Origin: Alphaproteobacteria bacterium
GTDB taxonomy: Bacteria > Pseudomonadota > Alphaproteobacteria > UBA9219 > RGZA01
Reading direction: 5' to 3'
NCBI GenBank assembly: GCA_010031785.1
Contig: RGZA01000007.1
Coordinates: 1 to 36,479 of the forward strand
DNA length: 36,479 nt
The stretch's first letter is position 1. The number at the start of each line of letters is the position of its first letter. This document shows, one piece after another, positions 25,588 to 32,687 of this stretch. The notes beneath the pieces were generated by a model. The model had not been told where the DNA came from. It made no database searches and saw only the letters and a program-made list of their open reading frames with translations. The translations under genes and the position numbers were made by a program.

Positions 25588-25995
25588 ATGCTGTCGATGA
25601 AAGCCAAATATGCCCTGCGTGCCCTGACAGTGCTTGCAAAAAGCAAGCAGGATATGACCCAAAGCAAGGTAATTGCCAGGGAGGCGGGTGTCCCTATCAA
25701 ATTTCTTGAAAATATTCTGCAGGAACTGAAACGCAATCATTTTGTCGAAAGCAAACGCGGTGTGTTTGGTGGTTATTATCTTGCGCGGCCTGCCAAGGAT
25801 ATTTCCGTTGCTGAGTTGATGCGCGTTATCGATGGGCCGCTTGCGCCGGTGCGTTGTGCAAGTTTATCGGCATACCAGAAATGTGATGATTGCAAGGATG
25901 AGCGCAGCTGCCAAATTCGTAAAACCATGAAGAAGGTACGCGATGCGATGGCGGATGTTCTGGATAAGACATCGATCCTTGATATGACGGCGTAA
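25588..25995 (+). CDS. Rrf2 family transcriptional regulator
   Basis: MLSMKAKYALRALTVLAKSKQDMTQSKVIAREAGVPIKFLENILQELKRNHFVESKRGVFGGYYLARPAKDISVAELMRVIDGPLAPVRC; cysteine cluster CX9CX2CX5C. Start placed at 25588. Confidence 0.93.
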   Translation: MLSMKAKYALRALTVLAKSKQDMTQSKVIAREAGVPIKFLENILQELKRNHFVESKRGVFGGYYLARPAKDISVAELMRVIDGPLAPVRCASLSAYQKCDDCKDERSCQIRKTMKKVRDAMADVLDKTSILDMTA

Positions 25996-26134: not shown

Positions 26135-26680
26135 TTAACCGCAGGTAAGTATTGCGTATGCGGATACATGACGCGAACGTTGGCGCGGTATAGAATTGGT
26201 CGGCAGGGATGCTGATATTATTTCGCTTCCTGCACTTCTAAAAGCAAGTATATGTTCTAGTCTTTTTGATTTCCGTAATACTTTCCAGTGTTCGAGCCCT
26301 GCTATAAATTTACGCGCTATAGCGCCACCTCTGTTCTCTTCAATGCCAAGTTTGATCTCTTCCCAAGACTTGAAATTCCCCTGCAGGTCACTGGAGGCAC
26401 GCTCGGCTAACCATTCGAACACACACTGCCGATGGATACTCTCAGCTGTAGCTCTAGGATTTCTTCTATTCTCCTGCTTTATATTTTTAGCTATCCCCTC
26501 TAGTATATATCCAAGATCGTACTTAGAAGTAGCCTTAGCTATATCATTGTTCCAATCCGTGTGTAGCCTTAGGTCTTGCTCTATGTTTGCTAAGGTTTCT
26601 GTGCAGGAATCATCTGAAGATAGCCGCAGGGCTTCTCTTGCATCGGCTAGCAGCGATCCAAGATGATCAAATGAAGTCAT
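26135..26680 (-). CDS. Hypothetical orphan protein (181 aa)
   Basis: ORF with GGGGAATTGAT upstream of ATG at 26680; lies between the two copies of the pnp tail; no recognised domain. Confidence 0.6.
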   Translation of the reverse strand: MTSFDHLGSLLADAREALRLSSDDSCTETLANIEQDLRLHTDWNNDIAKATSKYDLGYILEGIAKNIKQENRRNPRATAESIHRQCVFEWLAERASSDLQGNFKSWEEIKLGIEENRGGAIARKFIAGLEHWKVLRKSKRLEHILAFRSAGSEIISASLPTNSIPRQRSRHVSAYAILTCG

Positions 26681-26808: not shown

Positions 26809-26842
26809 CTTATCCAGCTGCTTGTTGCTGCTTGGTCAGATC
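26809..26842 (-). repeat. pnp 3'-end copy that is part of intact pnp (partner of 26080-26110)
   Basis: cttatccagctgcttgttgctgcttggtcagatc = [10 protein letters not shown]-stop on the minus strand. Confidence 0.85.
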
Positions 26843-28933
26843 TTCGCCGGTTTGCTGGTTCACAGCCTTCATCGAAAGGCGAACCTTGCCGCGATCATCA
26901 GTGCCTAGGCACTTAACCTTCACAACATCGCCTTCCTTCACAACATCGGTAACTTTACCAACGCGCTGGTTAGCAAGTTCGGAGATGTGCACAAGGCCAT
27001 CCTTACCGCCAAGGAAGTTTACGAATGCGCCAAAATCCATGATCTTCACAACCTTACCTTCGTAGATCATGCCAGCTTCTGGAACCGCAACAATGCCCTT
27101 GATCCAATCAAGCGCAGCTTTCGCTTTTGCTTCATCGTTGGATGCAACCATCACGCGGCCATCATCTTCAATGTCGATCTTCACGCCAGTCTTTTCGGTG
27201 ATTTCACGAATAACCTTACCGCCTGAACCAATCACTTCGCGGATTTTATCAACCGGGATTTGAATGGTGGTGATGCGTGGCGCAGTTGCATTCAGTTCGG
27301 TACGAGCACCGGTCAGAGCCTTTGCCATTTCACCAAGGATATGCATGCGGCCTTCTTGTGCCTGCTTAAGGGCAACCTGCATGATTTCTTCGGTGATCGA
27401 GGTAATCTTGATATCCATTTGCAAGGAGGTAATACCCTTATCGGTACCGGCTACCTTGAAATCCATATCGCCAAGGTGATCTTCATCACCCAGAATATCA
27501 GAAAGCACGGCATAACCCTTTGCTTCCTTGATAAGGCCCATGGCAATACCTGCAACGGGGCGGGCAAGTGGAACGCCTGCATCCATCAATGCAAGGGATG
27601 AACCGCACACGGTCGCCATCGATGATGAACCGTTTGATTCCGTAATTTCGGAAACAAGGCGGATCGTGTAAGGGAAGCTTTCCTTAGGTGGCAGGATAGG
27701 ATGCAGGGCGCGCCATGCAAGCTTGCCATGGCCGATTTCGCGGCGGCCTGGGGTGCCCATACGGCCGCATTCACCAACCGAGTAGGGAGGGAAGTTGTAA
27801 TGCAGCATGAAGTTTTCGGTGCGATCACCGGTCAATTCATCAATGCGTTGTTCATCCTGTGCGGTGCCAAGGGTTGCAACAACCAATGCTTGGGTTTCAC
27901 CGCGTGTGAACAAGGCTGAACCGTGGGTGCGTGGCAGAATGCCTGCTTCGCTAACGATTGGGCGAACAGTTTTGGTATCACGGCCATCGATACGCTTCTT
28001 GGTATCAAGGATCATGTTACGCATATAGTTATATTCCATATGCTCAACTGTTTCAGCAACAGCGCCTGCACAGAATTCGGTTTCAGGAATGCTCTTTGCA
28101 GCTTTATCCTTTAATGCAGCGATCTTGCTTTGGCGATTTTGCTTGATGGTTTCAGCGTACGCTGCCTTAAGATCAGCCCCGATGATGCCTTCCAGCTTCT
28201 TTTCGCATGCCGCTTTATCAAAGGAAGGAACAGGCAATGCCCATGCTTCTTTTGCAGCTAGTTCAGCAAGCTCAATGATCGCTTGAATAACCGGTTGGAA
28301 GTTTTTGTGTGCGAACATCACGCCTTTAAGCATGGTGTCTTCTGAAAGTTCCTTGGCTTCTGATTCAACCATCAAAACGCCTTCGGTTGTACCCGCAACG
28401 ATCAGATCGAGCTCACTGCCAACCTGTTGTTCGATTGTGGGGTTGAGGATGAATTCGCCATCCTTATAGCCAACCTTTGCACCTGCAACCGGGCCCATGA
28501 ACGGAATACCGGAAAGGGTAAGGGCAGCAGAGCAACCAACCAATGCAACGATGTCGGATTCATTGACAAGATCGTGCGAGAGAACAGTCGCCACAACCTG
28601 AACTTCATTCAAAAAGCCTTCAGGGAAGAGGGGACGGATCGGGCGATCAATCAAACGGCTGGTAAGGGTTTCAAAATCGGAAGGACGGCCTTCGCGCTTT
28701 AGGTAGCCACCAGGAATTTTACCAGCAGCATAGGCTTTTTCCTGATAGTTCACGGTCAGAGGAAAGAAATCCTGACCTTCCTTGGCTTTCTTTGCGCCAA
28801 CAACGGTGCAGAGCACGGATGTATCGCCATAGGTTGCAACAACCGCAGCAGTTGCCTGACGAGCAATTTTACCGGTTTCTAGAACCAGCTTACGGCCAGC
28901 CCACATGATTTCTTTACGATGGATATTAAACAT
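26810..28933 (-). CDS. pnp: Polyribonucleotide nucleotidyltransferase (PNPase)
   Basis: Two RNase PH domains; [50 protein letters not shown]1 [29 protein letters not shown]. Confidence 0.97.
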
Positions 28934-28967: not shown

Positions 28968-29085
28968 CGCTAAGGAGCAAGGAGAGTGACCTGAATAAAG
29001 GGCATTCGTTTATAAAATGCATTTTATTCAAGACACACGCCCCCGCCGAATCCTTAGCGCGATTGGCCACATTCTTAGGGCAATC
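28968..29085 (-). promoter_or_regulatory. Structured pnp 5' leader (nested inverted repeats)
   Basis: CGCTAAGGA(28968-28976)/TCCTTAGCG(29051-29059) perfect 9 bp; inner GAATAAA-GCATT/AATGC-TTTATTC (28993-29029); additional GATTGgCC/GGgCAATC just upstream. Confidence 0.5.
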
Positions 29086-29158: not shown

Positions 29159-30256
29159 CTATAAAAGCGAAGTAACTGTTTCTATGCTATAGTAGCTTAG
29201 CTCGTGCAAATACTCTTCTAATGTTACAAGGCTAAGACAGGGCATTACTCCTTCAAGGGGGAAGGTTTTGTCGACTAGTTTTTTAGCAAGAATGATAGCA
29301 GGAATGGTTGGAATATTGGGGCCATGACCATCGCGCGCAATGATAAACCACGTTATACGATGAGATTGGCCGTGGTGATTTTTGCCCGAAATGATCATAT
29401 GCATTCCACCATCGGCTGAGCCAAAGCGATCAAACCAATTGCTGATCTTCAAAAGTGGTTCTGCATAGTGTGGCAGATAAAGCGGCAACCCTAAGCGCAC
29501 CAACCAGCTTACTATCCATAAGCCAAGATGTAGCGGCCATAATTCTAGCCCTGCAGAAAAACGAACAGATTTCAGTCCATAATACTGTGGCAACAGATCA
29601 AGATCAGGAATATCGCAATTTGCCATCCACCGCATGCCAAGGCCAGGATAGTTTTGCAGATATATATCTTGCCAGCCATAGCGCATATGTTTTTGCCCAG
29701 CGATTATTTTCAGTGGCTTGCCCACATACGATAAAATGGCCTGGGTTGTGGCAAGGCCACGTTCAGCTTTCTGACCAGGGCTGATGCCAAATGTTAAATC
29801 ATCAAAAGATGAGAAATCTTTTTTAAAATGTTCCAGCACGGCTGAAGAAAGTCCGGGCACAGTGCTGGCGCCGCTAATGATTGCAACATGATGCTGTTTT
29901 GCCTTCTCATCAAGTTGCGTAATGCCTGTTACAAAATCGCGGCCATCCGCCAGATCGATATAATGTAAGGATGCTTCAATGCATATGTTCGCAATGTGGT
30001 AATCGCTATTCTGGAATGGGCCGCATGTATTGATAACGACCGATGGTTTTATGAGTTTTAATTGATCTGCGAGTTCACGCCGCACATCAAAAATCGCAGT
30101 CTGTACCAATCCATTCGGTAGCTGCTGAGCAAAGGTTTCCGCCTTTTCCTTATTGCGCCCGGCAATGATAATTCTGTAACCATCGCGGCATAAGGCTGTT
30201 GCAATGCGTTTGCCGAAATTGCCATAGCCGCCAAGGATTAATATAGGGCCGCGCAC
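29159..30256 (-). CDS. Saccharopine dehydrogenase-like NAD(P)-binding protein
   Basis: Rossmann motif ILILGGYGNFGKRIATAL; VVINTCGPFQNSDYHIANICIEASLHYIDLADGRDFV; SGASTVPGLSSAVLEHF. Confidence 0.88.
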   Translation of the reverse strand: MRGPILILGGYGNFGKRIATALCRDGYRIIIAGRNKEKAETFAQQLPNGLVQTAIFDVRRELADQLKLIKPSVVINTCGPFQNSDYHIANICIEASLHYIDLADGRDFVTGITQLDEKAKQHHVAIISGASTVPGLSSAVLEHFKKDFSSFDDLTFGISPGQKAERGLATTQAILSYVGKPLKIIAGQKHMRYGWQDIYLQNYPGLGMRWMANCDIPDLDLLPQYYGLKSVRFSAGLELWPLHLGLWIVSWLVRLGLPLYLPHYAEPLLKISNWFDRFGSADGGMHMIISGKNHHGQSHRITWFIIARDGHGPNIPTIPAIILAKKLVDKTFPLEGVMPCLSLVTLEEYLHELSYYSIETVTSLL

Positions 30257-31224
30257 GACATATCCTTTATTCTAAATTCACCGGTATAGGCAAAAGTTAC
30301 ACCAAACCACGGATGCTTGGCATGCATCCACATGCTAAAGCTATTATCAGAAATGGGTGTTTCTTCTGCGTGTCCTTTTCCGATTATCCATTCAAATGGC
30401 AAGGGGATAATAATATTCATAATGCGCCAAGCATAACCGCGATGGCTTAAAATAACTTTCTGACCATTCCAATGATATATACATCGCCAGCAAATGCCAA
30501 AACGCATAAATTCAATTACTTCATCTTTGCGGTATGGCTTCATCCGCGAAAAAAAACGAACATCTTTTTTTGGATAATGGAAAACTCGTTCAAAACGAAA
30601 TACATCGGAATGTATGCCGCTCCGGAATGTTACTGTGACAGGAATTTGTTTTCCGGATTCTGAAACCAGCACGCCCGATAATCGCGCCATTAAGCCAACG
30701 AGCCATGACACGGTAATATCTAAAACCCCTTCAACGACTACACAATCATTACTATGGGGCTTGATGGCATAATGTTTTTTGAGAACAATAGGTAATATTT
30801 CCCATGTGTCGCCAAAAATTGATTTGAATATTGGTGTATTGTGATCGGGCTCAATGGGAATTACGCCCATAATTATTAATAGATAATGTCGGATGAATTT
30901 GAAAAGCGGATAAAAGAATGCTGAAAGAATCTTCGATCTGAAGAGAAAAACATTTATCTTATTAATGATATCAACCTCGCTTCCCAGCATTGCCAGGAGA
31001 TGCATGGCATCTTTGCCGTAATACGATTTGCCCTGATATTTAATTGCAATCCCTTTATTTAAATCATAGCCTTGTTTCTTTGCTTCTTTAACAAGTGCGT
31101 GTTCTTCTCTGGCATTGATGATTTCCATATTACCAACGGCTTGGCGGAGTTTGATAACTTTTGCGACTTGGCTGCATAATGGGCATTCGCCATCGTAAAT
31201 CAGATAGAGTGTTTCCTTCGTCAT
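30238..31224 (-). CDS. DCC-family thiol-disulfide oxidoreductase-like domain fused to DUF4166
   Basis: N-terminus LYLIYDGECPLCSQVAKVIK (CxxC, DUF393/DCC); C-terminal half IFKSIFGDTWEILPIVLKKHY...HPWFGVTFAYTGEF resembles DUF4166. Start placed at 31224. Confidence 0.8.
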   Translation of the reverse strand: MTKETLYLIYDGECPLCSQVAKVIKLRQAVGNMEIINAREEHALVKEAKKQGYDLNKGIAIKYQGKSYYGKDAMHLLAMLGSEVDIINKINVFLFRSKILSAFFYPLFKFIRHYLLIIMGVIPIEPDHNTPIFKSIFGDTWEILPIVLKKHYAIKPHSNDCVVVEGVLDITVSWLVGLMARLSGVLVSESGKQIPVTVTFRSGIHSDVFRFERVFHYPKKDVRFFSRMKPYRKDEVIEFMRFGICWRCIYHWNGQKVILSHRGYAWRIMNIIIPLPFEWIIGKGHAEETPISDNSFSMWMHAKHPWFGVTFAYTGEFRIKDMSCAALY

Positions 31225-31850
31225 AGAGTCTTCTCTTTGAAAATGCCTTCTTGCAGGAACATTAACCCAAACCATGGATGGATCATTTCTATTCGTACCT
31301 CAAAGCGATCATCGCCATAATCGCTATGCTTAATCATGGCTTTTCCGGGTGAAAATATCATTGGAATGGGTAGGCGCCACTCTGCAATTTTGATAAAATA
31401 ATGTGTTGTTTCAAAGTGCAAGTTACCATTTATGGCATACACATTCATTGTCATGCCAAGCCATGAATTTACATATTCTTCAAATTCATTCTTGCGATTA
31501 AGCGCCATGTAAGAATGAACCTGAAATGGTTTCCTGCCTGTAAAATAATAAACCCTGCTCTTATGAATACTGGGATCGCCATTCTCCTTATAAACCTTCA
31601 CATCAATAGGGACATTGGTTTGGCAATAAGGTATCAGAGGAGCATTAATCAGCTTTGCGCAATATGCAAATAGCTTGCCGAGAGGAGAGCAGCGAACCTC
31701 TGTCATCACTCCATCATATTCTTTTGGTTCGGTATAGAGTGGGTCCTGCTCAAACCGAGCTTGTGTTTTTGAGGATAAATTCTTCCATTGCTCACCAAGC
31801 GCAAGCTTTATAAGCTGTCCTTCAGTTTTGATGTTTGGGTCATTAAGCAT
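31221..31850 (-). CDS. DUF4166-like protein
   Basis: KLALGEQWKNLSSKTQARFEQDP...EMIHPWFGLMFLQEGIF; same end motif (HPWFG...F..G.F) as the preceding fusion protein; ATGA overlap with the DCC gene. Confidence 0.75.
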   Translation of the reverse strand: MLNDPNIKTEGQLIKLALGEQWKNLSSKTQARFEQDPLYTEPKEYDGVMTEVRCSPLGKLFAYCAKLINAPLIPYCQTNVPIDVKVYKENGDPSIHKSRVYYFTGRKPFQVHSYMALNRKNEFEEYVNSWLGMTMNVYAINGNLHFETTHYFIKIAEWRLPIPMIFSPGKAMIKHSDYGDDRFEVRIEMIHPWFGLMFLQEGIFKEKTL

Positions 31851-32318
31851 GGACTATCTAACAGTTAAGTTAATTCATATAATAAGTTCAACCATCCTGT
31901 TTGGCACAGGTATTGGCAGTGCATTTTTTATGTTTATAGCCAATCGCCGCAAAAATGTTTCGGATATTTATTTTGTTACGCGTCATGTTGTGATTGCTGA
32001 TTGGGTTTTTACGACACCAGCCATTATTATTCAGCTCGCATCCGGTATGGGCCTTGTTACTCTTGGTGGTCATATTGTAACAGATTTTTGGTTAATAACA
32101 GCGCTCATCCTATTTTTCTTTGCGGGTGCGTGTTGGCTACCTGTGATATGGCTGCAAATAAAGATGCGTGATATGGCCAAGCAAGCCTTCGATATGCATA
32201 TCCACTTCCTGATCGCTATTGGGAATATGACCGCTGGTGGATATTTCTTGGTGTGCTAGCTTTTCCAAGTGTTCTTATCATTTTTTATTTGATGGTTTTG
32301 AAGCCAATCGGCTTTTGA
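31849..32318 (+). pseudogene. DUF2269-family membrane protein, frameshifted near 32195-32210
   Basis: Frame 1: MDYLTVKLIHIISSTILFGTGIGSAFFMFIANRR...FAGACWLPVIWLQIKMRDMAKQAFDMHI; an adjacent frame then encodes LPDRYWEYDRWWIFLGVLAFPSVLIIFYLMVLKPIGF-stop (ends 32318), matching the expected family C-terminus. Frame 1 alone stops at 32259. Confidence 0.8.
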
Positions 32319-32370
32319 AAGCAAATAGTAGCAAAAACTTAATATGCCATTTTACAAACTAAAATAAAAA

Positions 32371-32393
32371 GGGGCGCTATAAAATAGCGCCCC
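32371..32393 (-). terminator. Rho-independent terminator of the infB-rbfA-truB-rpsO transcript
   Basis: GGGGCGCTA taaaa TAGCGCCCC, followed on the minus strand by TTTTTATTTT. Confidence 0.93.
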
Positions 32394-32417
32394 TTAAATG
32401 AATACTTATAAAAAAGC

Positions 32418-32687
32418 TTACTTACGAATACCAAGCTTTTCGATAATGGTTTTGTAGCTTTCTTCGTTTACAGACTTCAGGTAATCGAGAAGGCTGCGGC
32501 GTTGGCCAACCATTTTGAGAAGGCCACGGCGGGAATGGTTATCCTTTGGGTGCAATTTCAAATGGTCTGAAAGGCAGGTCATCTGGCTGGTGATCAGCGC
32601 GATTTGCACTTCTGGTGAGCCAGTGTCGTTTGCAGAACGGGCGAATGTTGAAACAATTTCTTGTTTTCTGGTTTGGTGTAACGACAT
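32418..32687 (-). CDS. rpsO: 30S ribosomal protein S15
   Basis: [57 protein letters not shown]. Confidence 0.97.

Follow-up and report, generated by a model that had tools for sequence, protein, structure and literature searches.

Described relatives of the component families

The saccharopine and carboxyspermidine dehydrogenases (8h4z, 8deb, 4rl6, and 4ina) are the solved relatives, found by profile, of the saccharopine-dehydrogenase-like enzyme (SDH) studied here, whose gene belongs to a block of four genes in a stretch of alphaproteobacterial DNA of 36,479 nucleotides (hereafter, the window). Compared with these solved saccharopine-type enzymes, the profile match of SDH is mainly N-terminal, whereas its C-terminal half remains unmatched beyond the first part. 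What SDH has in common with this superfamily is the N-terminal Rossmann domain, whereas its partners in the window, i.e., DUF4166, DCC, and DUF2269, are different. SDH matches PF03435, the NADP-binding Rossmann domain of Pfam, with an E value of 2.3e-11 (44.6 bits, cut-off 25.1), and it carries the dinucleotide motif GGYGNFG followed by AGR(N/S)xxKA (AGRN in the window). In Rossmann enzymes, such motifs favor NADPH, and this pattern thus favors NADPH as the probable cofactor of SDH. SDH may also resemble SCCPDH and Rv2953, of the trans-acting enoyl reductase superfamily. The mycobacterial Rv2953, annotated as a saccharopine dehydrogenase, reportedly acts in lipid biosynthesis as an enoyl reductase (PMC3089613).

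The stand-alone DUF4166 protein of the window matches PF13761 with an E value of 5.1e-23 (82 bits) and the DCC-DUF4166 fusion with 2.2e-18 (67 bits, cut-off 23), and the matches cover the full length of the profile (positions 1-184). There were no credible relatives of DUF4166 by sequence in the PDB, and neither DUF4166 nor PF13761 is mentioned in the open-access papers that were searched. The AlphaFold model of the stand-alone protein (pLDDT 93, pTM 0.88) confidently predicts a barrel of 10 antiparallel strands with helices at the N-terminus, the strand count and the topology being read from the secondary structure of the model and from the fold matches. The closest folds found by Foldseek were nitrobindins, Rv2717c, THAP4, the CpeS lyase, nitrophorins, and one fatty-acid-binding protein (FABP); for the nitrobindins, the probability was 1.00, the TM score 0.42-0.57, and the identity about 10%. 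Therefore, DUF4166 is predicted to be a calycin-like barrel of the lipocalin/FABP/nitrobindin type, which is a statement on the fold and not on membership or ligand. The barrel is what it would have in common with the calycins (the nitrobindins THAP4 and Rv2717c, lipocalins, FABPs, and CpeS lyases), whereas the extra N-terminal helices, the low identity, and the moderate TM scores set it apart. Calycin-like barrels bind heme, bilins, or lipids.

The DCC domain, located at the N-terminus of the fusion, matches PF04134 (E value 9.9e-9, 36.9 bits, cut-off 27.8) and contains the motif YDGECPLC, of the DGxCPxC type, whose two cysteines are invariant in four homologs. As to DUF2269, the model of an intact protein from another genome (locus L081) shows four long helices with a pLDDT of 95.5, suggesting a four-helix bundle of the membrane type. 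The fold search with this model against the PDB gave no significant match, and there were no credible PDB relatives by sequence. A distant relationship of the family to DUF989, a domain of the membrane urate oxidase PuuD, has been reported (PMC4562309), and DUF2269 is listed in one transcriptome table (PMC11267869).

A block of genes between rpsO and pnp

The block is flanked by pnp (26810-28933) and rpsO (32418-32687), and its features are collected in Table 1. The first-pass annotation had named the four families from the sequence, and PF03435, PF13761, PF04134, and PF10027 each reach at least their Pfam cut-offs. It had also described a terminator at the end of rpsO and an ATGA coupling between the two DUF4166 genes, and both features were found. 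Transcription on the minus strand proceeds from the stand-alone DUF4166 gene to the DCC-DUF4166 fusion and then to SDH, while the stand-alone DUF4166 and the DUF2269 genes are arranged head to head, with start codons that overlap in a common CATG (31848-31851).

Table 1. Features of the block between rpsO and pnp and of its two borders.
Feature	Position	Strand	Remarks
SDH, saccharopine-dehydrogenase-like NAD(P) Rossmann oxidoreductase	29159..30256	-	365 aa; GTG start overlaps the end of the DCC-DUF4166 gene
DCC-DUF4166 fusion	30238..31224	-	likely start ATG at 31224; ATGA overlap with the upstream stop; a longer ORF reaches 31275
Stand-alone DUF4166 protein	31221..31850	-	209 aa; predicted 10-stranded beta-barrel
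DUF2269 membrane protein gene	31849..32318	+	frame broken at about 32190-32215; stop of the in-frame ORF at 32259
rpsO intrinsic terminator	32369..32395	-	upstream limit of the insertion
Conserved pnp leader hairpin	28985..29035	-	pnp side of the insertion; arms GUGUCUUGA/UCAGGUCAC common to four same-family genomes

The DUF2269 gene had been assigned to the opposite strand, and the PF10027 match is indeed on the plus strand, but the gene is not intact. The match (E value 9.7e-38, 130 bits) covers only profile positions 2-111, the remainder being in another frame, in such a way that the HMM matches 31861-32193 first and then, after a change of frame, 32127-32306; the second frame contains an intact-looking C-terminus that ends at 32318. 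This frame break may be a deletion in the cell or an error of the draft assembly; should it be real, the system may be in decay in this genome. Intact DUF2269 copies exist in other genomes. Tandem DUF2269 paralogs were also observed (L182, L184, and L190), with a second copy about 23-26% identical to the query.

The block had been noted as visibly AT-rich, and in fact its GC content is 41.6% compared with 48.7 +/- 1.7% in the genome, a value below every one of 207 windows of equal length taken from 20 contigs of the same genome and from the window itself. The GC content is uneven inside the island (45% in SDH and 40% in the rest), and at the third codon position it is 0.36-0.43 in the island genes vs 0.49-0.53 in pnp, truB, infB, and rpsO. 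Moreover, the block splits an rpsO-pnp pair that is otherwise plain in close relatives: in four genomes (two congeneric, two from the same family), the gap measures 191-247 bp and the block is absent. DUF4166 is also absent from 30 of the 33 genomes of the order.

The insertion sits between two regulatory elements, with the leader hairpin of pnp on one side and the terminator of rpsO on the other. The hairpin arms are 9 nt long and invariant, and the sequence of the stem varies yet its pairing is kept in five family genomes. This element is possibly a leader for PNPase autoregulation. The hairpin has no Rfam match, nor did the Rfam scan of the region give any credible one. Downstream of pnp, the window encodes a 181-aa ORF without a Pfam match (26135-26680, minus strand) and an Rrf2-type regulator (25591-25992, plus strand), while two genomes of the same genus (G001 and G002) have at that place a gene that by eye is TauE/SafE-like and encodes a membrane protein.

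In the sister families of the order, the rpsO-pnp gap is often larger and contains a GNAT acetyltransferase-like gene, recognized by eye from the translations (L017, L019, L025, L029, L030, L031, L033, and L034). This suggests that the site is permissive and that insertions there are not unique, which tempers the surprise of finding one in the window.

The closest SDHs are found in other orders of the class, i.e., in G353 (locus L081, 67% identity) and G371 (L082, 61%), and they form a supported clade with the SDH of the window. PNPase is 63-67% identical between the window and these two genomes, and for G353 the SDH (67%) is more conserved than PNPase (63%). Since an accessory enzyme is here conserved as much as PNPase or nearly so, we infer horizontal transfer, and the block was probably acquired in this way. 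The spread is patchy, with a close SDH in 9 of the 26 genomes of the order of G371. The nearest cassette (L081) has a GC content of 52%, and thus the AT-richness of the island points to no known donor. Several vehicles were considered and discarded: there was no phage match and none was confirmed in viral contigs, five plasmids carry only distant DUF4166 homologs, and, instead of the terminal repeats of a mobile element, merely weak internal repeats are present.

Recurrence of the cassette and its Rossmann partners

The four genes had been proposed to form one functional module, and the co-occurrence analysis supports this proposal, as the families do share neighborhoods. Besides the window, eight alphaproteobacterial loci carry the DUF2269/DCC-DUF4166/SDH cassette (L078, L081, L082, L271, L273, L274, L275, and L276), either in divergent or in co-directional orientation and mostly with different flanking genes. 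One locus (L083) has no DCC and another (L270) has no DUF2269, and thus not every part of the cassette is essential. In this last locus, of genome G791, a DNA photolyase gene (L270:3074-4546) follows directly after the DCC-DUF4166/SDH cassette.

DUF4166 was detected in 45 of 385 genomes of the class and 51 of 399 of the phylum, i.e., in about 1 of every 8 sampled. When in-house profiles were run over the loci selected by DUF4166, this domain adjoined, or was fused with, a Rossmann enzyme (either SDH or a TIGR01777-type SDR) in 25 of 30 class loci, in 14 of 24 phylum loci, and in 75 of 80 GTDB loci, this last set coming mostly from related Burkholderiales, so that its 75 loci are not independent events. 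Furthermore, SDH and DUF4166 are encoded in one reading frame in 13 of the 30 class loci. As controls, about 205 kb of unrelated loci yielded a single SDH match and none for the other families, and in 161 kb from the outer ends of wide loci the matches were off-centre cassette parts or extra DUF4166/MarR copies, except for an SDR-like one in L089. These results argue strongly that DUF4166 works with a Rossmann enzyme, to which it is often fused, and, as judged from sequence and gene order, the four genes very probably constitute one module.

The partner enzyme is not always an SDH. In Burkholderiales, DUF4166 lies beside a Rossmann enzyme as it does here, but this enzyme is a TIGR01777 (YfcH/ThyD-like) SDR with its own N-terminal extension, and DUF2269 is usually missing. 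A homology of this N-terminal region with DUF2269 was discarded (hhalign 0.2%). The DCC domain also changes its position, being fused in G242 (L090) to the SDR that accompanies DUF4166 and encoded in G334 and G142 by a gene of its own beside an SDH-DUF4166 fusion. The L090 gene (L090:8325-10187) is a three-part fusion of the N-terminal extension, the TIGR01777 SDR, and DCC, and it adjoins DUF4166 and MarR genes. On the side of DUF2269, a Rossmann enzyme was found nearby in 21 of 30 phylum loci, and the two partners that were scanned are SDR-DoxX_3 fusions. These pairs of Pseudomonadota couple a Rossmann enzyme to the same DUF2269 family, as in the window, but this enzyme, an SDR, carries a fused DoxX_3, and both DUF4166 and DCC are lacking.

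Candidate function of the cassette

The locus is real, probably acquired horizontally, and a genuine conserved cassette, and its component domains are known families. As to its function, the reading that we favor, at somewhat less than an even chance, is that this horizontally acquired and self-contained cassette encodes a membrane-associated NADPH-dependent oxidoreductase system for a hydrophobic molecule. SDH would reduce this molecule with NADPH, and the DUF4166 barrel would hold it and hand it over at the membrane surface, while DUF2269 would anchor the complex or feed the substrate from the bilayer. The CxxC domain of DCC would donate or pass on electrons from thiols to the barrel fused with it or to the ligand of that barrel. 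In favor of this reading are the recurrence of the cassette in different surroundings, the fusions among its parts, the barrel model, and the high identity of SDH relative to PNPase; against it are the moderate TM scores and low identity of the barrel matches, the negative fold search with DUF2269, the loci devoid of DCC or DUF2269, the broken DUF2269 frame in the window, and an AT-richness that points to no known donor. That the system is a hydrophobic-substrate reductase is a tentative claim in itself; the earlier idea of a redox reaction on a lipid-like substrate gains some support because the predicted DUF4166 barrel is lipocalin/nitrobindin-like.

A related but rather unlikely role is the detoxification or repair of oxidized lipids, reactive aldehydes, or peroxides, where SDH would reduce an oxidized lipid held by the barrel and DCC would regenerate the thiol. 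The presence of the CxxC domain agrees with this role, as do the DNA photolyase gene that comes right after the cassette in L270 and the MarR-type regulators located upstream of many DUF4166 genes; however, the photolyase appears at a single locus, and the cassettes of the window type have no MarR.

We consider it unlikely that the cassette serves the biosynthesis or modification of a specific lipid or polyketide, with SDH acting by analogy as a trans-acting enoyl reductase like Rv2953 and DUF4166 presenting the intermediate. This proposal draws on the reported activity of Rv2953, annotated in the saccharopine dehydrogenase family (PMC3089613), and on a fatty-acid-hydroxylase gene that adjoins SDH and DUF4166 in G010 (L046), but the cassette is devoid of other biosynthetic genes.

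More improbable is that DUF4166 is a heme-binding, nitrobindin-like protein and that the cassette is a redox system linked to heme or nitric oxide, in which DUF2269 would be the heme-binding membrane subunit. The nitrobindins are the best structural matches of the DUF4166 model, DUF4166 has a near-invariant HP motif, and helix 1 of DUF2269 contains an invariant histidine. In addition, DUF2269 has been reported to be distantly similar to DUF989 of PuuD (PMC4562309) and has a weak profile similarity to HemJ (UPF0093; hhalign probability 32%, pairwise E value 5e-4). Nevertheless, all these similarities are weak, and that histidine is the sole invariant one of DUF2269.

Finally, a fortuitous grouping of accessory genes at the permissive rpsO-pnp site, which also takes the GNAT-like gene in sister families, is hardly credible and was ruled out by the recurrence of the cassette and the neighborhood counts, since the same genes are found together at other sites in many genomes and fused to one another.

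Returning to the membrane-associated oxidoreductase, a wider and more speculative form of this reading is that the cassette represents a so far undescribed membrane redox system that moves horizontally. In it, a lipocalin-like barrel bearing a thiol domain might present the hydrophobic substrate to the Rossmann reductase, and DUF4166 would serve NAD(P) reductases of several unrelated families as a general partner or carrier domain. The pairing of DUF4166 with two Rossmann families, together with the barrel model, yields the testable hypothesis that DUF4166 may be a hydrophobic-ligand carrier for NADPH reductases. In addition, the cassette ties two other domains that are common but little understood, DUF2269 and DCC, to the process in which DUF4166 takes part.
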